Below, in pieces: positions 8,455-24,161 of a stretch of DNA of 64,000 nt. The notes below the pieces were generated by a model. It had not been told where the DNA came from. It saw only the letters and a list, made by a program, of their open reading frames with translations, and did not search any database. The number at the start of each line of letters is the position of its first letter. The stretch's first letter is position 1. Both the position numbers and the translations under genes were made by a program. Origin of the DNA: Bordetella parapertussis. GTDB lineage: Bacteria; Acidobacteriota; Terriglobia; Bryobacterales; Bryobacteraceae. The DNA is taken from positions 1 to 64,000 of the forward strand of contig CALQCC020000016.1 of the NCBI GenBank assembly GCA_943328975.2, in the 5' to 3' direction.

Positions 8455-8599
8455 TCTGTGTCCCTATTGTTTCAGGCCTTCGCGGAGAACGCCACCCGGC
8501 CCGGACCCGCTTGCGCCCGGCCTTTCGTTGCGAAATACTAGGGCTAGTCTGCGGGCAGTGTATAGTGCATTGGTCCGAAGACCGCGTGGAGGAATGAGA

Positions 8600-11119
8600 A
8601 TGCAGAACCCGGTCGTTCACTCATGGGCAGTTCCAGCCGCCCTGACGGCCCTCATCGTAGGTGGGCTCGCTGCCAACGTCTTATTGCACGCGCAAGCTCC
8701 GGCCGCTTCGCAACGTCCTGCTGCCTCTCCCGCCAACCCCCGAGCCTTCATCGATACCTATTGCCTCGGCTGCCATAACGACAAGCTCCGCACCTCCGGC
8801 CTCTCACTCGAAAAGCTCGACGTCACCAATCCCGGCGCCAACGCCGAAGTGTGGGAACGCGTCATCGGCAAGCTCCGCTCCGGTTCCATGCCGCCCGCCG
8901 GAATGCCCCGGCCCAACGCCGAAATCTATCGCACCATCTACACAACCCTCGAAAATGAAATCGACCGTGCTTGGGCCGCCAAGCCAAACCCCGGCCGCAT
9001 CGGTTCGGTCCACCGTCTGAATCGCGCCGAATACGGCAACGCGATCCGCGACCTCTTCGGTCTCAAGGTAGACGTGGCCTCTCTGCTTCCCGGCGACGAC
9101 ACCGCCGACGGCAGCTTCGATAATTTCGCCGACACACTTTCGATCTCCACCGTCCATCTGGAACGCTACATGTCGGTCGCCCGTCAGGTTTCGCGTCTAG
9201 CGACCGGCCTGCCTCCTGCGCGTCCGGGCACGGAAAGCTGGGAAGTGCCCAAGTTCGTCGTCCAAAAGGACCGCATGAGCGAGGACCTACCCTTTGGCTC
9301 CCGCGGCGGTTTGGCGATTCCCTACAACTTCCCCGTCGATGGCGAATACGTTGTTCGCCTTCGCCTGAAGCGTCAGTATCAGGACTACCTGCAAGGCATG
9401 GGTTGGAAGCAGCAAGTGGAGATCCGGCTGGACGGCAAGCTCCTGAAGCGCTTCTCGGTCGGTGGCGAAGGTAAAGGCCGCGCCGCGGCCGCGAGCTACG
9501 CAGGCGATGGCGAAGTCGATTTCGCCGGCGATCCCGAGTGGGAAACCTACATGCAGTTGACCGGCGATGCAGGCCTGGAAGTGCGCGTCCCCGTGCAAGC
9601 GGGCCCGCGAACCGTCGGCGTCTCCTTCGTGCGCGAAGTCTTTGAACCCGAGGGCCTCCCGCAAGAAGTACAACTAGGCCGCGTTGTCTCCAACGACCAA
9701 ATCTATATGGAGTACGCCAGCGTCGGCTCGGTGCAGATCGCTGGCCCGTACGATCCGAAGGGCGCGAAAGACACCCCCAGCCGCCGCGCCATCTTCACCT
9801 GCTATCCGACGCAACTCTCGCAGGAACGCGATTGCGCCAATACGATCCTCTCTCGCATCGCCCGCCTCGCCTACCGTCGCCCCGCGACGAAAGCCGACCT
9901 CACCACGCTGATGGACTTCTTCGCGCAAGGCCGCAAGGATGGCGGCAGCTTCGACGAAGGCATTCAGTTCGCGATCGAACGCATGCTCGTCGACCCCGAC
10001 TTCCTCCTGCGCATCTACAAAACTCCGGTCGCGCGCACACCGGGTGGTCCTGCTCTGCAAGTCAAAGCCACGACGACCAAGGCTCCCGCCGCCTACAAGC
10101 TCAGCGACCTCGATCTGGCCTCCCGCCTCTCCTTCTTCTTGTGGAGCAGCATCCCCGACGACCAACTGTTGAACGCGGCCGAACGCGGCGAACTCAGCAA
10201 GCCCGCAGTCCTCGAAAAAGAAGTGAAGCGCATGCTTGCCGATAAGCGCGCCACGGAAGCGCTGGTGAACCAGTTCGCCGCGCAATGGCTGAACCTGCGC
10301 CAGGTGGTCGACGTCGTGATCGACCCCAATAAATATCCGCTCTACGACGAAAGCCTGCTGCGCGCCTTCCAGACGGAGACAGAAATGTTCGTCGCCAGCA
10401 CCGTCGAAGAAGATCTCCCGGTGAAGTCGCTCATTGATGCCAACTACACTTTCGCCAACGAACGTTTGGCCGAGCACTACAAGCTCCCCGGCATCTACGG
10501 CAGCCGCTTCCGGCGCGTCACTCTGCCGGATCACGATCAGCGCGGCGGCTTGCTCGCTCACGGCTCCATCCTGGTAACAACGTCGTACCCGGACCGCACG
10601 TCTCCGGTGCTGCGCGGAAAATGGTTGATCAATAATATGTTCGGCCTGACGATTCCTCCGCCTCCGCCCGGTGTGAACGCGACGCTCGAAGCCAAGGCCG
10701 GCACGATCATCCCCGGCATTCGCGAGCGCCTGGCCCAGCACCGCACCAGTCCCACTTGCAACAGTTGCCACTCCGTGATCGATCCGCTCGGCTTCGCGCT
10801 GGAACGCTATGACGTCACCGGCGGTTGGCGCACGAAAGACGAACTGGGCAACGCGGTGGACTCCAGCGCCACCACCTCGACCGGCGTCAAGATCGACGGC
10901 TTGACCGGACTGCGCACCCTACTGCTCAGCGATCCCGAACAGTTCCCCCGCACCGTCACGGAAAAATTGATGGCCTACGCTTTGGGGCGCAGGCTCGAAT
11001 CTTACGATCAGCCGGCCGTGCGCAAAATCGTACGCAACGCAGCGGCGCAACAATACCGCTGGTCCGGCCTGGTACGCGGCATCGTCGAAAGCCCTGCGTT
11101 CCTTATGCGCGCAAATTAA
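8600..11119 (+). CDS. DUF1587/DUF1592/DUF1588/DUF1585 haem-binding secreted protein
   Basis: A large exported protein (839 residues from ATG 8600). A signal segment (about 10-32) is followed by a cytochrome-like site C55-L-G-C-H59, a DUF1587-type block (VHRLNRAEYGNAIRDLFGL), a carbohydrate-binding-like beta region, DUF1592 (ARLAYRRPATKADL), DUF1588 (SYPDRTSPVLRGKW) and DUF1585 with a second CxxCH at 720-724. The start is chosen by GGAGG at 8588-8592, seven bases before ATG 8600. First gene of a seven-gene operon, always paired with DUF1552 in this phylum. The substrate is not established. Confidence 0.9.
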   Translation: MQNPVVHSWAVPAALTALIVGGLAANVLLHAQAPAASQRPAASPANPRAFIDTYCLGCHNDKLRTSGLSLEKLDVTNPGANAEVWERVIGKLRSGSMPPAGMPRPNAEIYRTIYTTLENEIDRAWAAKPNPGRIGSVHRLNRAEYGNAIRDLFGLKVDVASLLPGDDTADGSFDNFADTLSISTVHLERYMSVARQVSRLATGLPPARPGTESWEVPKFVVQKDRMSEDLPFGSRGGLAIPYNFPVDGEYVVRLRLKRQYQDYLQGMGWKQQVEIRLDGKLLKRFSVGGEGKGRAAAASYAGDGEVDFAGDPEWETYMQLTGDAGLEVRVPVQAGPRTVGVSFVREVFEPEGLPQEVQLGRVVSNDQIYMEYASVGSVQIAGPYDPKGAKDTPSRRAIFTCYPTQLSQERDCANTILSRIARLAYRRPATKADLTTLMDFFAQGRKDGGSFDEGIQFAIERMLVDPDFLLRIYKTPVARTPGGPALQVKATTTKAPAAYKLSDLDLASRLSFFLWSSIPDDQLLNAAERGELSKPAVLEKEVKRMLADKRATEALVNQFAAQWLNLRQVVDVVIDPNKYPLYDESLLRAFQTETEMFVASTVEEDLPVKSLIDANYTFANERLAEHYKLPGIYGSRFRRVTLPDHDQRGGLLAHGSILVTTSYPDRTSPVLRGKWLINNMFGLTIPPPPPGVNATLEAKAGTIIPGIRERLAQHRTSPTCNSCHSVIDPLGFALERYDVTGGWRTKDELGNAVDSSATTSTGVKIDGLTGLRTLLLSDPEQFPRTVTEKLMAYALGRRLESYDQPAVRKIVRNAAAQQYRWSGLVRGIVESPAFLMRAN

Positions 11120-11134
11120 AGGAGACTCTCAGTC

Positions 11135-12457
11135 ATGGCATTCCTGACAAAATCCCTTTCTCGCCGGACAGTGCTCAGAGCCGCCGGAGCCTCCATGGCT
11201 CTCCCGTTTCTCGACGCGATGCTGCCGCCCATGCGCGGTGCCGTCAAACCCGTGCACCGCTTCCAAGCCTTCTACGTCCCCAACGGCATGGCGATGGAAT
11301 ATTGGACGCCCAAAGGCGAAGGCGCCAACTTTGAGATCCCGCCGATCCTGGAACCGCTCAAGGCCCATCGCGACAAACTGCTTATGTTCACCGGCCTCAA
11401 GGCCAGCTGGAACTACATCCACGCCGGAGCTTCGGGATCGTTCCTCACTGGCACCCCGCGCGGCGGCCGCAACGAAATCGAAATCATCGCCGACACCTCC
11501 ATTGACCAAATGCTCGGTCGGCATTTTGAGGGTGAAACGCAGCTCGGTTCGCTCTCGATGTCGCTCGACCCGCCCGCCAACGCAGGCGCCTGCACCGGCA
11601 ACCTCAGTTGCGCCTATCTCTGCACTCTCTCCTGGCGCAACGCGACCCAGCCTCTGCCCATGGAGTGGAATCCGCGCACGGTTTTCGAAAAACTGTTCGG
11701 CGATAGCGGCACCACCGATTGGGCCGCGCGCGAGAAGCGCCTGGTCCAACACAAGAGCCTGCTCGATTCCGTCAACGACAAACTGAACGGCCTGCGCCGC
11801 GAACTCGGCCCCGGCGATCAACGCAAGCTGGAAGAGTACACCGAGTCCGTCCGCGACGTGGAACGCCGTATCCAGATGGCCGAAAAGCAGCGCGACGTGG
11901 AACTGCCGTCACTCGATCAGCCGCTAGGCGCGCCCGCCGTCTTTGAAGACCACTTGGCGCTGATGATGGACCTCAAAATTCTGGCCTTCCGCTCCGACCT
12001 GACCCGCGTCATCGCCTTCATGCTCGCGAAAGAGCAGAGCCCTCGCCCCTATCCGCAAATCGGCGTCCCCGAAGCGCATCACCCACTCTCGCACCACAAC
12101 AACGTGCCCGAACTAGTGGAGCGCATGTCGAAGATCAACAAGTATCACGCGCAGTTGTTCGGCAAGTATGTCGACAAGCTCTCCACCACGCCCGATGGCG
12201 ACGGCAGCTTGCTGGACCACATGACCATCCTCTACGGAGCAGGCCTTTCCAACAGCAACGGCCACTCCGGCGTCGACCTCCCGCAGATCCTGGTCGGTGG
12301 CGGCGCGGGTCGCTGGAAGGGCGGCAAGCACCTGGTTCTGACCGACAAGCCTTCGCAAGCGAACCTGCTGCTCACCATCATGGATAAGTTTGACGTGCCT
12401 CTCGAAAAGGTCGGCGGCAGCACGGGCAAGATCTTGCTCGAACCCATCACTCTCTAG
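11135..12457 (+). CDS. DUF1552 family protein with Tat signal
   Basis: 440 residues. The N-terminus has a twin-arginine signal (SRRTVLRAAG followed by a hydrophobic stretch), so it is probably exported folded. Family motifs are visible: FYVPNGMAMEYW, a GLKASWNYIHAGASGSFLTG block, and a C-terminal ILYGAGLSNSNGHSGVDLPQILVGG resembling phosphatase or sulfatase-like folds. AAGGAG lies nine bases before the ATG. It sits 15 bases after the DUF1592 gene, its usual partner in Acidobacteriota and Planctomycetota. No biochemical role is known to me. Confidence 0.9.
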   Translation: MAFLTKSLSRRTVLRAAGASMALPFLDAMLPPMRGAVKPVHRFQAFYVPNGMAMEYWTPKGEGANFEIPPILEPLKAHRDKLLMFTGLKASWNYIHAGASGSFLTGTPRGGRNEIEIIADTSIDQMLGRHFEGETQLGSLSMSLDPPANAGACTGNLSCAYLCTLSWRNATQPLPMEWNPRTVFEKLFGDSGTTDWAAREKRLVQHKSLLDSVNDKLNGLRRELGPGDQRKLEEYTESVRDVERRIQMAEKQRDVELPSLDQPLGAPAVFEDHLALMMDLKILAFRSDLTRVIAFMLAKEQSPRPYPQIGVPEAHHPLSHHNNVPELVERMSKINKYHAQLFGKYVDKLSTTPDGDGSLLDHMTILYGAGLSNSNGHSGVDLPQILVGGGAGRWKGGKHLVLTDKPSQANLLLTIMDKFDVPLEKVGGSTGKILLEPITL

Positions 12458-12464
12458 GAGCCCC

Positions 12465-13859
12465 ATGCGCTACTTCGTACTCCTATGTCTGTCGGCAGCC
12501 AGCTTGTTCGCCGCCGGGTCTCTTGTGGACGCCGCGAAAGCGGGCGACAAAGCCGCTATCCGCACGATGCTGCAGCAGAAGGCCGATGCCGGGGCCACCA
12601 CTCCCGACGGCGCGACCGCTCTGCACTGGGTCGCCTATCACGACGACGTCGAAAGCGCCGACCTGTTGCTGCGTGCCGGCGCCAATGTAAACTCCGCGAA
12701 TGATCTTGGAGCCACGCCGCTGTGGCTCGCCTCGCAAAACGGTGGCTCGGCCATGGTACAGCGCTTGCTCGCCGCGGGCGCGAATCCGAACCTCGCTTTG
12801 CTCTCCGGCGAAACCCCGCTCATGGTCGCTTCGCGCGGAGGTTACGCCGGCGTCGTCACGCAGTTGCTCGCTAAAGGAGCCAACGTCAACGCCCACGGCA
12901 CCCGAGGCCAGACCGCGCTCATGTGGGCCGTCTCGCAACAACATCCCGAAGTGGTCAAAGTGTTGCTGGCCAACAAAGTCGATGTCCACGCCAAGTCCGA
13001 CGTGTGGAGCGAAGTCATGGCCATCCCTCCGCATGGGTACCTCCCGTACAACAAGAACATCCCGCATGGCGGTGAAACCGCGCTGATGTTCGCTGCGCGT
13101 GTGGGCGATCTCGATTGTGCCAAACTGCTGCTGGCCGCGGGCGCCAACGTGAACGATGCCGATGCCTGGGGCGTTACTGCCGTCACGCTCGCCGCGCACT
13201 CCGGCTTCACCGATCTCGTCCTCTACCTGCTGGACAACGGCGCCGACCCGAACAAATCCGACAACGGCTTCGCTGCGCTACACGAGGGCATCATGCGCCG
13301 CGATGAAAAAATGATCGCCGCACTGCTCGACCACCGAGCGGACCCGAACCTCACCCTCAAGACGTGGACCCCCACGCGCCGTTCCTCCGACGATTGGAAC
13401 TTCGATCCCGCTCTGATCGGTGCGACGCCACTCTTCATGGCCACCCGCTTCGCCGAACCCAACGTCATGCGCATGTTGATCGCCAAGGGAGCGGACACCA
13501 GGTTCGTTCAGAGTGTGGAGTACGTCGCAGAGGCCGGGTTCGGCCAAGAGCCCCGTAAGGAGCGCACGACTCTGATCATGGCCGCCGCCGGCATGGGCCG
13601 CGCCGGCAACCTATGGGTCCCGTACCCCGCGCGCGAACGTGAAGTCGCAGTGCTCGAAGCCGTGAAGCTCGCAGTCGAACTCGGGGGCGACATCAACGCC
13701 ACGGGACTTGACGGTCGCACAGCCCTCGACGGCGCGAACCAACTTCGAATGAAAACTGTGGTCGACTTCCTCACGGAGAAAGGCGCAAAATCCACCGCCC
13801 CCGCAGGTGGAGGTCGCGGAGGCCGAGGAGCTCAACCGCCCGCCGCGCCAGCCAAATAA
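12465..13859 (+). CDS. Secreted ankyrin-repeat protein
   Basis: 464 residues. The signal peptide is residues 1-17 (MRYFVLLCLSAASLFAA), followed by about eight ankyrin repeats with consensus turns such as DGATALHWVAYHDD, GETPLMVASRGGY, RGQTALMWAVSQQHP and GLDGRTALDGANQL. A 50-residue insert interrupts the array near 180-200. The C-terminus is Gly/Arg/Pro-rich. The ATG at 12465 is preferred over upstream in-frame codons because it gives the signal peptide and follows the DUF1552 stop by seven bases. Likely a periplasmic binding scaffold for another operon product (inference). Confidence 0.9.
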   Translation: MRYFVLLCLSAASLFAAGSLVDAAKAGDKAAIRTMLQQKADAGATTPDGATALHWVAYHDDVESADLLLRAGANVNSANDLGATPLWLASQNGGSAMVQRLLAAGANPNLALLSGETPLMVASRGGYAGVVTQLLAKGANVNAHGTRGQTALMWAVSQQHPEVVKVLLANKVDVHAKSDVWSEVMAIPPHGYLPYNKNIPHGGETALMFAARVGDLDCAKLLLAAGANVNDADAWGVTAVTLAAHSGFTDLVLYLLDNGADPNKSDNGFAALHEGIMRRDEKMIAALLDHRADPNLTLKTWTPTRRSSDDWNFDPALIGATPLFMATRFAEPNVMRMLIAKGADTRFVQSVEYVAEAGFGQEPRKERTTLIMAAAGMGRAGNLWVPYPAREREVAVLEAVKLAVELGGDINATGLDGRTALDGANQLRMKTVVDFLTEKGAKSTAPAGGGRGGRGAQPPAAPAK

Positions 13860-13860
13860 C

Positions 13861-14253
13861 ATGCGAACACTCGTCTGCACCTGCTTGCTCTTCTTAGCCG
13901 CCGTAATCCCTGCGTCACCGCAGGAAGGCCACCCCCTCTCCGGCACCTGGACCGGTGATTGGGGCGCGTCCGCCACCAGCCGCAACCACCTCACCGTCGT
14001 TCTCAACTGGGACGGTAAAGCGGTCACTGGTATTTTGAACCCAGGTCCCGGGTCAAGCCCCTTGCAGAACGTCGCCCTCGACGTCTCCAACTGGACCGTT
14101 CGCCTGGAAGCCGACGCAAAAGACGCCGCTGGGGCCGCTGTCCACATCGCCGCCGAAGGTAAGCTGCAAGACCTCGGCTCCATCCACCGCACCATCAAAG
14201 GCAATTGGAAACAAGGCACCGTCACAGGCGACTTCCGCCTGACGCGGGACTAA
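13861..14253 (+). CDS. Small secreted beta-rich protein
   Basis: 130 residues with a clear signal peptide (about 1-20, ending SPQ). The mature part has alternating hydrophobic strands: SGTWTGDWGA, LTVVLNWDGKAVTGILNPGPG, NWTVRLEADA and IKGNWKQGTVTGDFRLTRD, a lipocalin-like pattern ('GTWTGDW ... GNW..GTVTGDF'). The ATG at 13861 follows the ankyrin gene stop by one base. No family is recognised with confidence. Its place in the operon suggests an extracytoplasmic partner of the DUF1592/1552 proteins. Confidence 0.8.
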   Translation: MRTLVCTCLLFLAAVIPASPQEGHPLSGTWTGDWGASATSRNHLTVVLNWDGKAVTGILNPGPGSSPLQNVALDVSNWTVRLEADAKDAAGAAVHIAAEGKLQDLGSIHRTIKGNWKQGTVTGDFRLTRD

Positions 14254-14255
14254 CC

Positions 14256-15335
14256 ATGCGACGGATCGCCATTGCCGCATTCACCGCTGCCAGCCTCTAC
14301 GCGCAGCTCCCTTTCGCTGCGACCTACGATGCGGATCGCACCCTTCGTTTACAAGGCGCGGTAACACGCATCGACTGGGTCAACCCCCGCGCTTACATCT
14401 TCGTGGACAGCAACAATGCGAACTGGGCCGTCGAGATCGGCAACCCATTGGAACTCGAAGCCAGTGGTTGGAGCCGCAGTCGTCTTCACGCTGGCGATAT
14501 CGTCGCGGTGGAAGCCAACCCATCGCAAGGTCAGAAGAAAACTGCCTTCGCGAAATCCGTCACGCTCACGCGCACCGGCGAGAAACTCTTCGTTATAGCG
14601 AAAAAGCCTGCATCAACTGCCGCAGCCCCCGCGCCCCGCTGGCCCGATGGACACGTTCGCCTGGGCCCCGCGCCAGGACAAAAAGGCTACTGGGGTTCCG
14701 CCTCTGCCTCCAGTCTCACCGAGAAATCCACGACGCCGATCCGTATGGATGCATCCGGCCTGCTCAAGAATCTCTCTGACGCCGATCGCGTCGCCCCCTT
14801 CCATCCCTGGGCCAAAGCCCTCTACGAATACCGCCAGCGCAACCTGCTCCAAGACGATCCCGGTGCCCGCTGCATGCCTCCTGGTGGACCGCGCCAATTC
14901 CACACGCCCAACGGATTCCAGTTTGTAGAACAGCGCGAGCTCGGTCGCATCCTTGTCCTGCTGGGCGGCGGCAATCGCAACTGGCGAGCCATCTACACCG
15001 ACGGCCGCCCGCTCGCTCCCGCCGATGAAGTTGTCGCCGGCTACTACGGCACCTCGGTCGGAAAGTGGGAAGGCGACACGCTGGTGGTCGAATCCACCGG
15101 CTACAACGAGAACTTCTGGTTCAGCAACGGCGGACTCCCGCACACCGAAGCACTTCGCCTAACCGAACGCTTCACCCGCACGAACCTGAACACCCTGCGC
15201 TACGAAGTGACCGTGAACGACCCGCGCGCCTACACGCGCCCTTGGACCGGAGGCTGGAACATCCAATGGGTCGCCGGCAAAGAAATCCAAGAGTTTTTCT
15301 GCGAAGAGAACGCAGAGTCTACATTTGAACGATGA
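14256..15335 (+). CDS. Secreted fusion of a DUF6152 domain and a 'WPDGH' domain
   Basis: 359 residues: signal peptide (1-17), an N-terminal DUF6152-like beta domain (about 18-112; YDADRTLRLQGAVTRIDWVNPRAY), a Pro/Ala linker and a C-terminal domain (about 127-355) starting RWPDGHVRLGPAPGQKGYWG and including GKWEGDTLVVESTGYNE and LTERFTRTNLNTLRYEVTVNDP. The next two genes encode the same two domains separately. It starts two bases after the previous stop. The role is unknown; the C-terminal domain is common in Acidobacteriota secretomes as a stand-alone protein. Confidence 0.85.
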   Translation: MRRIAIAAFTAASLYAQLPFAATYDADRTLRLQGAVTRIDWVNPRAYIFVDSNNANWAVEIGNPLELEASGWSRSRLHAGDIVAVEANPSQGQKKTAFAKSVTLTRTGEKLFVIAKKPASTAAAPAPRWPDGHVRLGPAPGQKGYWGSASASSLTEKSTTPIRMDASGLLKNLSDADRVAPFHPWAKALYEYRQRNLLQDDPGARCMPPGGPRQFHTPNGFQFVEQRELGRILVLLGGGNRNWRAIYTDGRPLAPADEVVAGYYGTSVGKWEGDTLVVESTGYNENFWFSNGGLPHTEALRLTERFTRTNLNTLRYEVTVNDPRAYTRPWTGGWNIQWVAGKEIQEFFCEENAESTFER

Positions 15336-15346
15336 GGAAGGGACCT

Positions 15347-15724
15347 ATGAGAATCCTTGCAGCTAGTTTGATCGCGCTCCTAAGTGGACTGCCGCTCGCA
15401 GCCCATCATTCCTTCGACGCCGAATTCGACGCCAATAAGACGCAGACGCTAACCGGCGTCGTCACCAAGATCGATTGGATCAATCCCCACGCCTACGTTT
15501 TCTTCACCATGAAGGACGCCAAAGGCGAAGTTCAGACCTACAAGGTCGAGCTAGGTCCGCCCTACGCGCTCACTCGAGGTGGTTGGAAGAAAGACACCAT
15601 CAAGATCGGTGACACCATCCGAGTCGAGAACGCCGCCATGGCGAAAGACGGATCGAACTACGCCGGAGCCACGCGCGACACGTACTTGTTCCTTTCCAGC
15701 GGCGAAAAAATGGTGATGCGCTAA
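15347..15724 (+). CDS. DUF6152 family secreted protein
   Basis: 125 residues with a signal peptide (about 1-18, LSGLPLAA|HHSF). The mature protein opens HHSFDAEFDANKTQTLTGVV and continues TKIDWINPHAYVFF, the DUF6152 signature, and resembles residues 18-112 of the product of the gene before it. ATG 15347 is chosen over the in-frame ATG at 15332 because GAGGAAGGGA (15335-15343) precedes it at ribosome-binding distance. An N-terminal His-His pair could bind a metal, but that is only a guess. Confidence 0.88.
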   Translation: MRILAASLIALLSGLPLAAHHSFDAEFDANKTQTLTGVVTKIDWINPHAYVFFTMKDAKGEVQTYKVELGPPYALTRGGWKKDTIKIGDTIRVENAAMAKDGSNYAGATRDTYLFLSSGEKMVMR

Positions 15725-15728
15725 AACT

Positions 15729-16484
15729 ATGTCGAGAGCCCTTCTTCTGCTCGCACTAGCGCTGCCTCTCTGCGCGCAGAACCCTCCAGCTCCGCCTGCT
15801 AAGCCAGCGAAACCGGCTGCGCCAGCCCCCGCGCCCACACCGCGCTGGCCCGATGGACACGTCAACCTCGGCGCGACGACCGATCAAAAAGGCTACTGGG
15901 AGATCCGCCCCGGTGGCGGTAATCGTTTCCCTCGCCCCGCCGACGTCCCCCTGCAACCCTGGGCCCGAGCGCTCTACAACTACCGCACCGCCGCCGTCGA
16001 ACTCTATCCGCCGCTGGTCCACTGCAAGCCCGCCGGAGGCCCAGGCTTCTTCAACTCCCCCGGCTTCGAAATCGTCGACGCACCGGCACTCAAACAAATC
16101 TTCATCCTCAACATCGCCGGAGCCCACTCCTGGCGCGTCATCTATATGGACGGTCGTCCCCACCCGCAAGGCGACGCCCTCCGGCCCACTTACCTGGGCC
16201 ACTCCACCGGCCGTTGGGAAGGTGACACGTTAGTCATCGACACTGTCGGCTTCAACGAAAAACAGTGGATCACCAGTGCTTACCCGACGACCACGCAGCT
16301 CCACCTAACCGAGCGTTTCACGCGCCCCAACGTGGCCACGCTGAACTACGAAGTCACCTTCGATGACCCCGGAGCCTTCACCGCCCCCTGGTCCGGTAGC
16401 TGGACCATCGGCCCCGGCTCGTCCTCCTCGCAATGGGTCGAAGGCGGCGAACTGTTCGAGTACATTTGCCAAAACGAACGCTAA
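15729..16484 (+). CDS. Secreted stand-alone 'WPDGH' domain protein
   Basis: 251 residues. A signal peptide (1-16) and an Ala/Pro/Lys linker lead into RWPDGHVNLGATTDQKGYWE, then GRWEGDTLVIDTVGFNEKQW and LTERFTRPNVATLNYEVTFDDP. These align along their length with the C-terminal part of the fusion protein encoded at 14256-15335, so the two are paralogues. It starts four bases after the DUF6152 gene and ends the operon; the efflux genes begin 52 bases later. No catalytic motif is recognised. Confidence 0.85.
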   Translation: MSRALLLLALALPLCAQNPPAPPAKPAKPAAPAPAPTPRWPDGHVNLGATTDQKGYWEIRPGGGNRFPRPADVPLQPWARALYNYRTAAVELYPPLVHCKPAGGPGFFNSPGFEIVDAPALKQIFILNIAGAHSWRVIYMDGRPHPQGDALRPTYLGHSTGRWEGDTLVIDTVGFNEKQWITSAYPTTTQLHLTERFTRPNVATLNYEVTFDDPGAFTAPWSGSWTIGPGSSSSQWVEGGELFEYICQNER

Positions 16485-16536: not shown

Positions 16537-17772
16537 GTGAAACTTCTCATCAGTCCGAAATTCCTCTTGTTGGCGGTGCTGAGCATCGCTGGAACGGCCC
16601 ATGCCCAGACCCTGTTAATGCTGGACGACGCGGTGCGCCAAGCCCTGGACAACCATCCACTACTGCAAGCCGAATCCCAGCGCATTGCCACGGTGGACGC
16701 CCTGGCCGAACAAGCCGGCGTGCGCCCCAATCCACGTTTATTTGTCCAAAGTGAAAACTGGCGCTACAGCACGCCGACGCAGCCCATCGCCTCCACGTTT
16801 ACTGACCAGTTCCTCTACCTATCGCAGGTGCTCGAAACTGGAGGCAAACGCCAGCGCCGCGTCGATGTTGCGCAACAAAACGTCCAGCTCTCTCAACTCG
16901 AACGCGAGCTACTCGCGAAGCAAATCGAGGCCCGCGTCAAGCTAGCCTACTGGTCCGCCGTAGGAGCGCAACGCGTCTTGGAACTGCTGCGCGCGAGCCA
17001 GCAGAACCTGCAACAAACCGTCGAATACCATGAGATCCAGCTGCGCGAAGGCGCCATTGCCGAGTCCGACGTCCTTCGTGTCCGGCTAGAAGGCGACCGC
17101 GCCGCCATCGCGGTGGAGAACGCGGCGCGCGACGCCGACGCCGCTCGCATTGCCCTCCTACGTGAGATGGGGAGCCAAACGTTTATGGACATCCGGCTCG
17201 GCGAAACTCTCGATGCCCAGCCCGATCCGCCCCTGGCGAACGTCGACGAAGCTCTGAGTAACCGCACAGAAATACGCCAAGCCCGTCAGGCGATCGACCA
17301 AGCCAGCGCCGGGCTCCGCTTGCAGAACGCCGTAGCGCGACCCGACGTGGAAGTGATCTCCGGCTATAAACGAACCTCGGGATACAACACTGTGCTGTGG
17401 GGCTTTCAAGTGAACCTGCCTTTCTTCAACAAGAACCAAGGCAACATCGCCGCGGCCACCAGCGAAATTACTGTCGCCGAATCCCGCTTGAAAGCCGTCG
17501 AAGCCCGCGTGCGTGCCGACGTCGAAGCTGCCTTGCGCGACGTGCAGAGCCGACGTCAGCGCTTAGCTTCGCTCGTCACCGGGACCTTGGCCCGCGCCGA
17601 CGACTCTGTCTCCGTCGCCCGCGCAGCCTACCGCGAAGGCGGCACCGACTTGCTCCGCTTGCTCGACGCAGAACGTATTTACATTGAACTGGAAGTCATG
17701 AACGCGCGCATGCGCATGGAGTACCGGCAAAGTTTGGTCGGGCTCGAAACCGCCTTGGGGGTGAGCCGATGA
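16537..17772 (+). CDS. czcC: TolC/CzcC-family outer-membrane efflux protein
   Basis: Outer-membrane channel of a tripartite RND metal pump. From GTG 16537 the product has 411 residues with a convincing signal peptide (VKLLISPKFLLLAVLSIAGT followed by AHAQ). Two outer-membrane efflux repeats follow, rich in long coiled-coil helices (about 75-160 and 260-340). RPNPRLFVQSEN and GGTDLLRLLDAERIYIELE are typical of the family. The Shine-Dalgarno sequence is weak, so the start is set by the signal peptide. It overlaps the adaptor gene by four bases (ATGA), the first of a czcCBA-regulator-sensor run. Confidence 0.9.
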   Translation: MKLLISPKFLLLAVLSIAGTAHAQTLLMLDDAVRQALDNHPLLQAESQRIATVDALAEQAGVRPNPRLFVQSENWRYSTPTQPIASTFTDQFLYLSQVLETGGKRQRRVDVAQQNVQLSQLERELLAKQIEARVKLAYWSAVGAQRVLELLRASQQNLQQTVEYHEIQLREGAIAESDVLRVRLEGDRAAIAVENAARDADAARIALLREMGSQTFMDIRLGETLDAQPDPPLANVDEALSNRTEIRQARQAIDQASAGLRLQNAVARPDVEVISGYKRTSGYNTVLWGFQVNLPFFNKNQGNIAAATSEITVAESRLKAVEARVRADVEAALRDVQSRRQRLASLVTGTLARADDSVSVARAAYREGGTDLLRLLDAERIYIELEVMNARMRMEYRQSLVGLETALGVSR

Positions 17773-18983
17773 AACCGTTGATTGTAGTTTGTGCAGCATT
17801 GTTCTGCGTCGCATGTTCCAGCGATCCAGTTGCCGAAGTCGCCTCCCCGCCGCCTGCTGCCACCGCGCCGGCCAAAGTCTCGAACACCGTGACATTCTCA
17901 GCCGAAGCCCAAGCCAGCAGCGGCCTGGCCGTGATCACGCTGTCCTCGCAAGCCATGCCCGAAGTAGTCCGTGCGACGGCCCGCCTGACCAACGACGAAA
18001 ATCACACTTGGCGAGTGGGCGCAGTCGCCGAAGGCCGCATCGAACGTGTGCAAGCCAACCCCGGCGACATCGTGCAGAAAGGGCAACTGCTCGCCCAGAT
18101 GCACAGCCACGACATCCACGAATCCCGAGCGCTGTACAAAAAAGCCAAGGCCGATCTAGCTCGCGCCGAAGGCGTGGAAAAATACCAGACTGGAGTGCGC
18201 GACCGCGCTAAGCGATTGCTCGATCTACGCGCCGGTTCCGTGGCCCAATTGGAGCAAACCGAGACCGAGTTGAAGAATGCCCAGACCGAAGTCCACAACG
18301 CGGAGTTTGAAGTCGAGCGAACCCGCGCGCATCTTACAGAAGTGTTGGGCATCCCGGCGGAAGAATCTGAAATCCCCGCTGGCCCCAGCGGCGACGACAA
18401 CGACTTGATCCCGGTCAAGGCTCCGGCGAATGGCGTTGTTCTCACCAGGAACGTCACGCTCGGCACCGTAGTGAACCCCTCCACCGACCTGTTCGTGCTG
18501 ACCGACCTCTCCACCCTCTGGGCCATCGCCGAAGTCAACGAAGAGTATCTCGCGAAATTGCGCATCGGCATGCCCGTCAAGATTTTCGTGCAAGCGTATC
18601 CCAACCAGGCCTTCCAAGGCCGCATCGGTAAACTGGGGGAAGTGCTCGACCCCGGTACGCGCACCATCAAAGTCCGCATCGATCTTCCCAATCCGCAAGG
18701 CCGCCTCAAACCCGAGATGTACGCCGACGCCGAACTTCAAGTCGGTCGCGGCGGCTCTGCCCTGATGCTGCCTTCCGAAGCCATACAAGACCTGCGCGGC
18801 GAATCCGTTGTATTCGTGCGCGTCGCCCCGGATCGTTTCGAAATGCGCCCCGTGCGTACCGGTAAGACCGTGGATGAATCCATGGAAGTCCTCTCCGGCC
18901 TCCAACCCGGCGACAACGTCGTCGTGAAGTCCGCCTTCATCTTGAAGTCCGAGTTCATGAAAGAGTCCCTCTCCGGGGAGTAG
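17769..18983 (+). CDS. czcB: RND efflux periplasmic adaptor (CzcB-like lipoprotein)
   Basis: Membrane-fusion protein linking pump and channel. 404 residues. The N-terminus carries a lipobox-like CVACSS, so it is probably lipid-anchored. A barrel-sandwich hybrid (VQANPGDIVQKGQLLAQMHS, later IPVKAPANGVVLTRNVTLG) surrounds an alpha-hairpin (about 115-190); the beta-barrel (LWAIAEVNEEYLAKL) and membrane-proximal domain (IQDLRGESVVFVRV) follow. Order and length match CzcB. No extra N-terminal metal-binding Met/His cluster is seen. Overlaps czcC by four bases and ends two bases before the pump gene. Confidence 0.93.
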   Translation: MKPLIVVCAALFCVACSSDPVAEVASPPPAATAPAKVSNTVTFSAEAQASSGLAVITLSSQAMPEVVRATARLTNDENHTWRVGAVAEGRIERVQANPGDIVQKGQLLAQMHSHDIHESRALYKKAKADLARAEGVEKYQTGVRDRAKRLLDLRAGSVAQLEQTETELKNAQTEVHNAEFEVERTRAHLTEVLGIPAEESEIPAGPSGDDNDLIPVKAPANGVVLTRNVTLGTVVNPSTDLFVLTDLSTLWAIAEVNEEYLAKLRIGMPVKIFVQAYPNQAFQGRIGKLGEVLDPGTRTIKVRIDLPNPQGRLKPEMYADAELQVGRGGSALMLPSEAIQDLRGESVVFVRVAPDRFEMRPVRTGKTVDESMEVLSGLQPGDNVVVKSAFILKSEFMKESLSGE

Positions 18984-18985
18984 TC

Positions 18986-21900
18986 ATGTTAAAACGCATC
19001 CTCGATTTCCACATGGAGCACCGCTTGCTGGTGCTGGTCGGCGTCGTCGGCATTATCGCAACCGGCGTATGGGCGCTGCTGCGCATTCCCATCGATGCCT
19101 TCCCCGACCTCACCAACAATCAAGTCACCGTCATGACTGATTCTCCCGGCATGGCCCCCGCCGAGGTCGAGCAGTTAGTCAGCTACCCCATCGAGATCGC
19201 TCTCATGGGAACGCCGAATACGCAGACCGTGCGATCCATCTCCAAAGCCGGACTGTCCGTAGTCACCGTCGTCTTCGATGATTCCGTGGCTACGTACTTC
19301 GCGCGCCAACTCGTAAACGAGCGTCTACAAGAAGTTCGCGCGCGTTTGCCGAAAGGTCTCGAACCGACTCTGGGACCCGTCGCTACCGCCTTCGGCGAGA
19401 TCTACCAGTACACGGTCGAAGGCGCGTCGCAGACGCCGATGGAATTGAAGACTACCCAGGAATGGCAGATCCGCAACCAACTTCGCACCGTGCGCGGAGT
19501 CAACGAAGTCAACACCTGGGGCGGGGAAACGCGCCAGTATCACATCGAGATCGAGCCCGACCGCCTGCGCTCCTACGACCTCACGCTTCGCGACGTCTTC
19601 GCGCGCGTCAGCGAAAATAACGCCAACTTCGGCGGCGGTTATCTCGAACACGCATCGCAACAATACACGCTGCACGGCATCGGCCGCGCGCAGAGCATCG
19701 CGGACCTGGAAGAAATCGTGCTTGTCTCGCGTGCCGGAACCCCCGTCCGCTTGAAGAACGTCGCCAGCATCTCCATCCAGCCCATGCAGCGCCAAGGCGC
19801 GACACTCCGCGACGGCAAGGGTGAAACCGTCTCCGGTATGGTGATCATGCTCAAAGGCGAAAACGGCAAACAAGTGCTGGAGCGCGTGAAAGATCGCCTA
19901 GCGGCCCTGGTGCTTCCCGCCGGAACCAAGATCCGAGCCTTCTACGATCAGTCCGAAGTCATCGACCGCACCATCGAAACCGTAAAGAAAAATCTCCTCG
20001 AAGGCGGCATCCTCGTCGTCGCTGTACTGCTGCTCTTCTTGGGCAACATCCGCGCCGCCCTCATCGTGGCCGCGGTGATTCCCCTCTCGCTCTTGGTCGC
20101 CTTCATCGGGATGAACATCTTCGGCATTAGCGCCAACCTGATGAGTCTGGGTGCCATCGACTTCGGCATGATTGTCGACGGAGCCGTAGTGATGATGGAA
20201 AATTCCATCCGCCGCCTGCAGCACAAGCCCGCCGGCACAACGCCCGAGCACGAAATTCGTGAGGGCGCCTACGAAGTCGCCCGGCCCATCCTCTTCGCCG
20301 TCGCCATCATCATCGCCGTGTACATGCCCATCTTCTTCCTCGAAGGCTTGGAAGGCCGCATGTTCCGTCCCATGGCTATCACCGTTTGCTCCGCTTTGCT
20401 GGGAGCCTTGGTATTCGCCTTGACCGTCGTGCCTGCAGCCACGGCCTTGACCTTCCGCAATGGCATCTCCGAACACAAAGAGACCTACTTCGCGCCGATC
20501 CGCCGCGGCTATCAATCCGCCGTTGAGTTCCTGCTCCGTCACCAATTCAGCACTGTCGTTGTTGCCTTGAGTCTGGTCGTAGTCAGCATTTGGTCGCTCG
20601 CCTGGATCGGAACCGAGTTCATGCCGCGCCTCGATGAAGGCTCCATACTCATTGAGACTCGCAAGCTGCCCGGCGTCTCTCTCCCGCAATCCATCGACAT
20701 GAGCACCCAAGTCGAAAAGGTGGTGCGCGGCTTCGATGAAGTCTCCGGCGTCGTCACTAAGATCGGCCGTCCCGATCTTGCCACCGAAGCCATGGGCATC
20801 TACCAGGGCGACGTGTACGTCTTGTTGAAGCCTTACGAACAGTGGAAGAACGGCGGCACCAAGGAAGAATTGATTGACCGCCTGTCCGCCGCTCTCTCGA
20901 AGATCCCCGGCGTAGCCTACAACTTCACTCAACCTATGGCTATGCGCCTGGACGAAGTGATCTCCGGCGTGAAGGGCGATGTAGCCGTGAAGATCTTCGG
21001 CGAAGATCCGCGCGTCCTCGAACAACTTGCCGAACAGACTTTACGTGTTGTCTCTACCGTGCCCGGCGCGGCCGACGCCCAGATGGAAATGACCAGCGGT
21101 GTCTCCGAACTGCAAGTCTCCATCAATCGCTCCGAACTCGCCCGCTATGGCCTCAACGTCTCCGACGTGCGCGAGACCATCGAAACCGCCGTCGGTGGGC
21201 GCTTTGTCAGTGACATGATCGAAGGCCAACGCCGCTTCGCGATCGTAATGCGCCTGCCCGAACACTACCGCCACGATCCGCAAAGCCTGCGCGGCATTCT
21301 TCTCTCCGCCCCCGGTGGCGAGCGCGTCCCTCTGGGACAAGTAGCCGAAGTGGCTCTGCGCCAAGGCCCCGAACTCATCACCCGTGAAAACGGCCAGCGC
21401 CGCATCGTAGTCCAGACGAACGTCCGTGGCCGCGACCTCGGTGGCTTCGTCGCCGACGCGCGCCCCAAAACCGCCAAGGCTGTTCCACTGCCGCCCGGCT
21501 ACTCCATGGAATGGGGCGGTCAGTTCGAAAATCAGCAGCGCGCCACCGAACGCCTTGCCATTGTCCTCCCGGCTTCCATCCTGATCATCTTCGGACTGCT
21601 GTTTGCGACGTTCCAATCCGCACCGCAGTCACTTCTCATCCTGCTGAACGTTCCGTTCGCGCTCGTAGGCGGAATCGCGGCACTCTGGATTCGCCATCTC
21701 AATCTGAATCTCTCGGCCTCGGTCGGTTTCATCGCGCTCTTCGGAGTCGCCGTCTTGAACGGCATCGTCATGGTCAGCTACATCAACAGTCTGCGCGACA
21801 CGGGAATGCCGCTTCGTCAGGCGGTCCTCGAAGGCTCCTCCATTCGTCTGCGACCCGTACTGATGACCGCGCTCGTCGCCAGCCTCGGCTTCATTCCCAC

Positions 21901-22051
21901 AGCGCTCTCCACATCAGCCGGTGCCGAAGTGCAGCGTCCGTTAGCCACCGTAGTCATCGGCGGCTTGGTCACCTCCACTATCCTTACGCTGCTCGTTCTG
22001 CCCGTCGTCTATCCTTGGTTTTCCAAGCGCGACGCTGCAATGACAAAATAG
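18986..22051 (+). CDS. czcA: Heavy-metal RND efflux pump (CzcA family, HME type)
   Basis: Inner-membrane proton-driven pump, 1021 residues, with 12 expected membrane segments and two large periplasmic loops. The TM4 motif at 390-406 reads AIDFGMIVDGAVVMMEN. By the established HME scheme the DFGx3DGxxxxxEN form marks divalent-cation pumps (Co, Zn, Cd, Ni), whereas Cu(I)/Ag(I) pumps of the CusA type have AIGxxxDAxxxxxEN. I therefore infer divalent-metal export. Other conserved parts include PDLTNNQVTV near the start and GTEFMPRLDEGS at mid-length. The downstream regulators are in the same transcript. Confidence 0.95.
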   Translation: MLKRILDFHMEHRLLVLVGVVGIIATGVWALLRIPIDAFPDLTNNQVTVMTDSPGMAPAEVEQLVSYPIEIALMGTPNTQTVRSISKAGLSVVTVVFDDSVATYFARQLVNERLQEVRARLPKGLEPTLGPVATAFGEIYQYTVEGASQTPMELKTTQEWQIRNQLRTVRGVNEVNTWGGETRQYHIEIEPDRLRSYDLTLRDVFARVSENNANFGGGYLEHASQQYTLHGIGRAQSIADLEEIVLVSRAGTPVRLKNVASISIQPMQRQGATLRDGKGETVSGMVIMLKGENGKQVLERVKDRLAALVLPAGTKIRAFYDQSEVIDRTIETVKKNLLEGGILVVAVLLLFLGNIRAALIVAAVIPLSLLVAFIGMNIFGISANLMSLGAIDFGMIVDGAVVMMENSIRRLQHKPAGTTPEHEIREGAYEVARPILFAVAIIIAVYMPIFFLEGLEGRMFRPMAITVCSALLGALVFALTVVPAATALTFRNGISEHKETYFAPIRRGYQSAVEFLLRHQFSTVVVALSLVVVSIWSLAWIGTEFMPRLDEGSILIETRKLPGVSLPQSIDMSTQVEKVVRGFDEVSGVVTKIGRPDLATEAMGIYQGDVYVLLKPYEQWKNGGTKEELIDRLSAALSKIPGVAYNFTQPMAMRLDEVISGVKGDVAVKIFGEDPRVLEQLAEQTLRVVSTVPGAADAQMEMTSGVSELQVSINRSELARYGLNVSDVRETIETAVGGRFVSDMIEGQRRFAIVMRLPEHYRHDPQSLRGILLSAPGGERVPLGQVAEVALRQGPELITRENGQRRIVVQTNVRGRDLGGFVADARPKTAKAVPLPPGYSMEWGGQFENQQRATERLAIVLPASILIIFGLLFATFQSAPQSLLILLNVPFALVGGIAALWIRHLNLNLSASVGFIALFGVAVLNGIVMVSYINSLRDTGMPLRQAVLEGSSIRLRPVLMTALVASLGFIPTALSTSAGAEVQRPLATVVIGGLVTSTILTLLVLPVVYPWFSKRDAAMTK

Positions 22052-22060
22052 AGGTGGCCC

Positions 22061-22747
22061 ATGCGAATCCTTCTTGTCGAAGATGAGCAAGACGCCGCGC
22101 GGATGCTTGCCAAAGGCCTGCGCGAGCAATCGTACGCGGTGGATGTGGCCGAAAACGGCCTTGAAGGCCTGGAAAAAGCCGAGATCAATTCTTACGACCT
22201 CCTCGTTCTGGACGTCATGCTGCCCGGCCTCGACGGCATGCAAGTGTGCCGCCGCCTGCGCCAGCAAGGTTCCCGCGTCCCCATTCTGCTGCTCACCGCG
22301 CGCGACGGAGTGCACGATCGCATCTCCGGACTCGATTGCGGCGCCGACGACTACCTCACGAAACCCTTCGACTTCGGCGAGCTGCTGGCCCGCATCAGAG
22401 CCCTGCTGCGGCGCGGCACCGAATTGAAAGATACTGTTCTGACAGTGGGCGACCTTTCCTTAGACACACGAACCCACGCCGTTGTCCGCGCCGGAGTGCC
22501 CATCTCACTCACCGCGAAGGAATACGCACTCCTCGAATACCTTGTGAGCCGGACCGGAGACGTCGTGACTCGCGCTGACATTTCCGAACACGTCTGGGAA
22601 GAATCGTACGACCCCTTCTCCAATCTCATTGAAGTCTACGTGCAACGCCTGCGCCGCAAGCTGGAGGCAAGAGGTGGCACCTCCCTCTTGCACACCCGCC
22701 GAGGCGAAGGCTACGTGCTGAGCGCCGAACAGGACGTGCATGCTTAA
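22061..22747 (+). CDS. OmpR-family response regulator of the efflux operon
   Basis: 228 residues: a receiver domain (1-120) with the acidic pair E7-D8, phosphoacceptor D51 (LLVLDVMLPG), and K101 in YLTKPFDF; then a winged-helix DNA-binding domain (about 130-222; ISLTAKEYALLEYLVSRTGD, then LHTRRGEGYVL). It resembles CopR/CusR/CzcR regulators. It starts nine bases after czcA and overlaps the sensor gene by eight bases, so the pump and its control genes are one unit, probably autoregulated. Confidence 0.94.
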   Translation: MRILLVEDEQDAARMLAKGLREQSYAVDVAENGLEGLEKAEINSYDLLVLDVMLPGLDGMQVCRRLRQQGSRVPILLLTARDGVHDRISGLDCGADDYLTKPFDFGELLARIRALLRRGTELKDTVLTVGDLSLDTRTHAVVRAGVPISLTAKEYALLEYLVSRTGDVVTRADISEHVWEESYDPFSNLIEVYVQRLRRKLEARGGTSLLHTRRGEGYVLSAEQDVHA

Positions 22748-24161
22748 CTCCGTCCGCTTCCGTCTCACTGGTTGGTATGTCGGCGTGCTCTCCTTGGTGA
22801 TGATCGCCTTCAGCATGGGTGTCTATTCCATGCTCGCGCAGACCATTCGCGAAGAAGCCGATCGGCAACTTGCGGGAGCCATCGACGTCCTTGGCCGCTC
22901 GTTACGGCATGAAATCGAAGAACACGAAGGCCAGCAGCAAGGCGAGCCGTCCTTCCAAGGCGTAGTGTCCACCGTCTATCGCGATTCCTTCCCCGGCATC
23001 GGCGTCGCCGTCTATCAAGGAAAACGGTCAGTTGCTGTGAAGCCGGGGCCAGGGGGCCTCATTCCACCGCACACCGAAGGTTTCGCGACTCCTGCCTTCC
23101 ATGACACCCAGGTGCAGGGTGAACAATGGCGAGTTCTCACACAAGACCTCCCCGTCAAAGACGCTGGCACCTACCAGTTTGTCTCCACCGCGTCCCTCGA
23201 ACCCGTCGACGCCGAACTCGCCGGTCTGCGTCAAACTTTCTTCTTCGCCATTCCTCTCGCACTCGTCGCCGCTGCGATCGGCGGCTTCCTGCTCGCGCGC
23301 AAGAGCCTCGCCCCCGTAGTGGAGATGTCTGAAACGGCCAACCGCATCAGTTCCAAAGACCTCAGCCAGCGCGTCGCTGTCGGAAATCCCAAAGACGAAC
23401 TGGGAAGACTGGCTTCCACATTCAACCGTTTGCTGGAACGCCTCCAGGGTTCCTTCGCCCTGCAACGCCAGTTCATGGAAGATTCCTCGCACGAATTGCG
23501 CACGCCCATCTACGTTGCGCAAACTGCGGCTCAAGTCACCTTGGGTCACGGTGGCCGCAGCGAAGAAGAATACCGCGAAGCGCTCACCACCATCGATCAA
23601 CAATTGCGACGCTTGCAGCACATCGTCGAAGACATGTTCGTCCTGGCCCGCGCCGATGCAGGAGCCTACCCTCTCCAAGTCGCCGACTTCGACTTGGGTG
23701 AGACCGTGAATGAATGTGTCCGAGCCGCTGCCTTACTAGGACAACGCCACGGTGTCTCCGTCACCGGTCCCGATCCCCAGGAACTCCCCGGCCGCGGCGA
23801 CGAAGGCCTTATCCGCCAACTGGTGCTCATTCTGCTCGATAACGCAGTGAAGTACACGCCGCAAGGCGGACACATCTCCGTCGCCATTGACGAAAGCGAT
23901 CCGCAATCCTACTCCGTCATTGTTCGCGATACCGGACCCGGCATTCCCGCCGAAGCCCGCGAGAAAATCTTCGAACGCTTCTATCGCGTCGACAAAGCCC
24001 GCTCGCGTTCCAACGTAGCGGGCGGCAGCGGCGCGGGATTAGGCCTAGCCATCGCCAAGTGGATCACCGGCATGCACGGCGGCTCGCTCACGCTCGTCGA
24101 CTCCGATCGCGGCAGCAGCTTCCGCGCCACCATCCTCCGCCAGACTGTCCCTGTCGCTTAG
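22740..24161 (+). CDS. Sensor histidine kinase of the efflux operon (CusS/CopS-like)
   Basis: 473 residues. TM1 12-33, a periplasmic sensor of about 130 residues, TM2 166-187, HAMP about 188-240, HisKA with phosphorylated His251 in SSHELRTP, and HATPase with N-box LLDNAVKYTP, then DTGPGIP and GSGAGLGLAIAKWI. The motif set is complete, so it should be active. The periplasmic loop has few His or Cys residues, so the metal-binding mode is unclear. Start ATG lies inside the end of the regulator gene. Confidence 0.94.
   Translation: MLNSVRFRLTGWYVGVLSLVMIAFSMGVYSMLAQTIREEADRQLAGAIDVLGRSLRHEIEEHEGQQQGEPSFQGVVSTVYRDSFPGIGVAVYQGKRSVAVKPGPGGLIPPHTEGFATPAFHDTQVQGEQWRVLTQDLPVKDAGTYQFVSTASLEPVDAELAGLRQTFFFAIPLALVAAAIGGFLLARKSLAPVVEMSETANRISSKDLSQRVAVGNPKDELGRLASTFNRLLERLQGSFALQRQFMEDSSHELRTPIYVAQTAAQVTLGHGGRSEEEYREALTTIDQQLRRLQHIVEDMFVLARADAGAYPLQVADFDLGETVNECVRAAALLGQRHGVSVTGPDPQELPGRGDEGLIRQLVLILLDNAVKYTPQGGHISVAIDESDPQSYSVIVRDTGPGIPAEAREKIFERFYRVDKARSRSNVAGGSGAGLGLAIAKWITGMHGGSLTLVDSDRGSSFRATILRQTVPVA

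Follow-up and report, generated by a model that had tools for sequence, protein, structure and literature searches.

A fusion of DUF6152 and WPDGH domains is co-inherited with stand-alone copies of both and lacks the histidines of a putative N-terminal metal site

Four genes lie on the + strand of the window (the whole 64,000-nt stretch of DNA analysed here, from a soil-type bacterium of the Bryobacteraceae) in the order c0, fusion, DUF6152, WPDGH. The first, c0 (13861-14253), encodes a predicted secreted protein of 130 aa that belongs to no known family. The second (14256-15335), characterised from its ORF, Pfam and BLAST matches, an AF2 model and fold comparison, encodes a fusion in which a signal peptide is followed by a DUF6152 domain, modelled as an OB fold, and a WPDGH domain, modelled as a calycin-type barrel. 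The third and fourth encode a stand-alone DUF6152 protein (15347-15724) and a stand-alone WPDGH protein (15729-16484), and the products of the DUF6152 and WPDGH genes carry signal peptides. The first-pass annotation had described a three-gene unit made up of the fusion and both of its separate halves; all three ORFs were confirmed as intact, on the + strand and separated by gaps of 4-11 bp, but c0, which was left out of that description, also belongs to the unit.

The fused and split domains proved to be significantly similar on pairwise alignment, as had been expected from their shared motifs (WEGDTLV, LTERFTR and RYEVT/NYEVT), all of which are present. By BLAST, residues 6-86 of the fusion are 38% identical to the 15347-15724 product (E 3e-18), and residues 117-350 are 44% identical to the 15729-16484 product (E 3e-66). 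With fusion/split alignments of 86 aa for the DUF6152 part and 241 aa for the WPDGH part, local scores were 162 and 490, far above the means of 26 and 35, respectively, for shuffled sequences. The assignment of both N-terminal copies to a DUF6152-type domain also held, since the fusion (59.2 bits) and the stand-alone protein (86.5 bits) each exceeded the Pfam PF19649 cut-off of 27. No match to the WPDGH domain was found in Pfam or NCBIfam.

Both domains belong to large families. The genome from which the window is taken (4.34 Mb, 99.7% complete) holds 122 matches to the fusion, and a profile search, with loci fetched from the genome, identified 88 WPDGH and 43 DUF6152 domains, mostly in adjacent pairs; its ORFs comprise three fusions, 40 DUF6152-only and 84 WPDGH-only genes. 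Together these two uncharacterised exported families, one of which is without a Pfam model, account for >120 of its genes. In gene neighbourhoods rebuilt from genome regions with a home-made gene caller, a WPDGH gene lay at most 500 bp from a DUF6152 gene in 27 of 36 cases, compared with a rotation expectation of 1.2. The pairing is also found in other Acidobacteriota and on plasmids of Sphingomonadales (Sphingobium, Croceibacterium and Novosphingobium). DUF6152 and WPDGH genes are therefore coupled, and the earlier suggestion that the two domains are functionally linked is upheld by their adjacency, by the Sphingomonadales pairs and by the conservation of the fusion together with its split partners.

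The genes c0, fusion, DUF6152 and WPDGH form a co-inherited cassette. Each of the three fusions in the genome is followed by a stand-alone DUF6152 gene and then a stand-alone WPDGH gene. A survey of 200 family genomes found the fusion together with its split partners in 13, spanning three genera, and c0 in the identical 13; those orthologues of the window fusion that carry names come from Bryobacteraceae and Terriglobia MAGs. Gene calling at 20 fusion loci in other genomes, plus L101, L056, L059 and the window, placed c0 directly before the fusion, or before a cytochrome gene that precedes the fusion, in all loci but one (L168, the sole examined fusion locus without c0). Three of the five c0 copies in the window's genome lie ahead of fusions and two beside split pairs, all five adjoining a single WPDGH subclade, that of the cassettes, and a fusion or a split DUF6152/WPDGH pair is present at 29 of 30 c0 loci. 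Few genes besides the cassette members recur around fusion loci.

The origin of the fusion was traced in a tree of WPDGH domains, where all 18 fused domains formed one clade (support 0.967) that grouped with the WPDGH domains of split pairs L031, L064, L094, L095 and L097 (support 0.902); L031 and L064 also carry c0. Within a 42-member clade (0.998), the other half comprised the stand-alone WPDGH proteins of the cassettes, itself a weakly supported grouping (0.631). Because the fused clade nests among the WPDGH domains of split pairs, a single fusion event, from such a pair, is most likely, with the cassette most likely duplicated after fusion to give groups A (which includes the window), B and C. 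The single origin is read from the WPDGH tree because the DUF6152 tree is weak; the latter places the fused domains of group A apart from those of groups B and C. Seven group B cassettes contain a c-type cytochrome gene, which precedes the fusion and, in those that have c0, follows c0; the cassettes of groups A and C lack it. The proposal in the first-pass annotation that one set of domains arose as a duplicate of the other did not survive in its simple, local form: the WPDGH tree separates fused from split copies as two sister groups predating the cassette duplication, and this rules out a recent simple local duplication as the source of the fused and split sets.

AF2 models were obtained for the fusion (pLDDT 91.8, pTM 0.84), with a confidence compatible with packing of its two domains, and for the stand-alone DUF6152 protein (pLDDT 92.4, pTM 0.82). 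Using VIA-align, the DUF6152 domain of the fusion (model residues 11-92; 14334-14579, + strand) matched PriB (4apv) with a Z of 9.9 and an rmsd of 1.9 over 76 aa, and the stand-alone model matched the OB folds of SSB and Teb1 with a Z of about 9. In these models DUF6152 thus adopts the five-stranded barrel of an OB fold. The fold alone is common to DUF6152 and proteins such as PriB and SSB; unlike these, DUF6152 is predicted to be exported and carries no sign of nucleic-acid binding. The WPDGH domain of the fusion (model residues 115-327; 14646-15284, + strand) matched FABP, CRBP1 and NanoLuc barrels with Z of 7.8-8.5 over 118-128 residues at 11-14% identity (Z 8.0-8.5 for NanoLuc, CRBP1 and FABP5), a level that may reflect mere common arrangement, so that the alignment is no more than suggestive of a calycin-type (FABP-like) barrel. 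Although the barrel can be aligned, WPDGH differs from FABP, CRBP1 and NanoLuc in its two conserved cysteines, its extra loops and its low identity to them. When solved structures were searched with profiles, neither A1 nor A4 had a usable match and A2 had only a marginal one (6xi3). NlpE, an envelope protein linked with copper, consists of a lipocalin-like barrel joined to an OB domain, in the reverse of the domain order predicted for the fusion.

Histidines are highly conserved in the DUF6152 family. In an alignment of 44 stand-alone proteins the invariant columns are an Ala at -1, His1, His2, an Asn-Pro-His and one Gly. In the stand-alone protein of the window the His-His (15404-15409, + strand) forms the predicted mature N-terminus, and the Asn-Pro-His (15482-15490, + strand) falls between strands 1 and 2 of the model. 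Of 77 distinct DUF6152 proteins, 76 have both a Pro-His and a His-His directly after the predicted signal peptide, the exception being the window fusion. The residue preceding the His-His is Ala in 75 and Gly in one, and most have a typical residue at -3; the cleavage site was assigned from the -1 and -3 residues alone. Where other DUF6152 proteins have the N-terminal His-His, the window fusion has Gln-Leu (AQLPF; 14304-14309, + strand), and the conserved Asn-Pro-His is replaced by Asn-Pro-Arg (14382-14390, + strand).

The combination of His-His and Pro-His resembles what an N-terminal-histidine metal site would be expected to show. Metalloproteins of this kind have recently been found through such a pattern (PMC12537917), and the known examples bind copper or nickel (PMC12537917, PMC10952591), which supports the metal-site proposal for DUF6152. 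DUF6152 goes unmentioned in PMC12537917, and no paper naming it was found in the one literature library searched. Compared with the histidine-brace proteins LPMO, CopC and X325 and the signal-strapped DUF4198, DUF6702 and anglerases, DUF6152 proteins are likewise exported, with a predicted His at residue 1 and a second invariant His (PMC12537917, PMC10952591), the latter matching the second conserved histidine that a histidine brace would require and provided by the Asn-Pro-His in all 44 stand-alone proteins. They differ in having a second, adjacent His and in their predicted OB fold, whereas DUF4198, DUF6702 and anglerases are beta-sandwiches. Since the WPDGH alignment has no conserved histidine, the conserved residues being Cys206, Cys349, Gly265, Glu304, Asp322, Arg244 and Trp271, the proposal of a metal site was confined to DUF6152. 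In the DUF6152 model, strand 1 separates His1/His2 from His29, and the distance between them in the monomer may be large.

Loss of the histidines extends beyond the window. Both motifs are intact in 18 of the 31 distinct fusions, and the other 13 lack the His-His. The loss is seen in 13 of the 14 fusions of group A, the orthologue group of the window fusion, whereas both motifs are kept by the 17 group B and C fusions and by one further protein, L139. The Pro-His is also lost in eight of the 13 fusions without His-His and in none of the 18 that bear it (Fisher p 1.6e-4, ignoring relatedness). In the 13, H1 and H2 are never retained (0/13 each) and H29 is retained in five; E49 is replaced too in three, while W25, P28, G18, L56, W61 and G69 are retained in every one. 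For the DUF6152 part of computable pairs of these fusions, dN/dS was 0.07-0.19, a rough estimate given that dS was >0.8 throughout. The fused OB domain has thus lost its putative ligands but remains under purifying selection, beside a stand-alone copy that retains them. In every computed pair the dN of the fused DUF6152 domain exceeded that of the fused WPDGH domain. L139 (G314:C18), the orthologue nearest to the window fusion (70%), sits, with weak support, within the group that has lost the His-His. Its retention of both the His-His and Asn-Pro-His implies either repeated loss or a later return of the site, which gene conversion by the adjoining gene may have brought about.

The reading that best accommodates these data, to which we give an even chance of being correct as a whole, is that DUF6152 and WPDGH proteins are obligate secreted partners, that DUF6152 binds metal and that the window fusion is a metal-free structural subunit. 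The OB-fold DUF6152 protein would dock onto the calycin-type barrel of WPDGH; His1-His2 at the mature N-terminus and the Pro-His of the first loop would form a transition-metal site, probably for copper, and the WPDGH barrel may bind a small ligand. The fusion would have tethered one such pair, after which, in the lineage of the window, the tethered OB domain would have shed its metal ligands and been retained as a structural or assembly subunit, the neighbouring stand-alone DUF6152 protein keeping the metal site. The c-type cytochrome gene inside seven group B cassettes was counted in favour of this explanation. Counted against it were the lack of that gene in groups A and C, the possible distance between His1/His2 and His29, the replacement of E49, the placement of L139 and a gene context that points to no substrate. 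A more specific version can be offered tentatively, in which DUF6152 would bind copper on its OB fold through a site resembling a histidine brace and would work with an undescribed calycin-type partner, probably in envelope redox chemistry, with the cassette encoding a live metal subunit and a fused pseudo-subunit free of metal.

Considerably less likely is the alternative that the proteins are obligate partners but that the His-His and Pro-His are structural or serve in docking to the partner, so that the tether in the fusion makes a free N-terminus dispensable and lets the histidines drift. The coupling of DUF6152 to WPDGH, on which this explanation also draws, is well supported, and loss of the histidines is indeed confined to fusions. 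However, L139 and the 17 group B and C fusions are equally tethered and keep both motifs, so tethering alone does not release the histidines, and where these are lost the nearby W, P, G and L residues remain.

An unlikely alternative to the metal-binding partnership places the cassette functionally within one of the operons that flank it: a planctomycete-type cytochrome/DUF1552/ankyrin operon upstream (8528-13859) or a CusCBA-like efflux operon with a two-component system downstream (16537-24161). In the window the strand is shared and the spacing tight, and the cytochrome/DUF1552/ankyrin cluster is also found near the cassette in L160, L162 and L163. There, however, it is oppositely oriented, most other cassette loci have unrelated flanks, and the CusCBA-like genes were not seen beside the cassette at any other locus examined. 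No conserved same-strand linkage of the cassette to either operon was seen among the loci examined, and a functional link to them was rejected since the flanks differ among loci. The genome (4.3 Mb) contains about 40 PQQ-dehydrogenase-like loci, 19 DUF1552 genes and about 45 TonB-type outer-membrane barrels. Counts of their association with the DUF6152/WPDGH families looked suggestive, but rotation tests at 3 kb in the window's genome did not support it (PQQ, p 0.08; DUF1552, p 0.20; TonB-type, p 0.07), and none of the three is enriched near these families beyond chance. With no such enrichment, gene context names no substrate. That the fusion is a leftover of gene duplication, neutral or in decay and without a role of its own, is very improbable: its DUF6152 domain does evolve faster than its WPDGH domain, but it is intact in 13 genomes of three genera, cassette order is maintained, and dN/dS is low even where the His-His has been lost.

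The near-absolute conservation of His-His and Pro-His in DUF6152, combined with naturally occurring fusions that lack them, offers a direct test of DUF6152 as a metalloprotein, and the same His-less fusions provide a handle on the role of the WPDGH partner. If the metal-binding proposal is true, the range of N-terminal-histidine metal sites would come to include the OB fold and a widespread soil lineage. As a separate observation, genes for DUF6644-type membrane proteins adjoin DUF6152/WPDGH genes on two Sphingomonadales plasmids and once in the window's genome (L134:12387-13402, L138:7026-7998 and L074:4563-5036), and the DUF6644 protein is a possible membrane partner of DUF6152/WPDGH.
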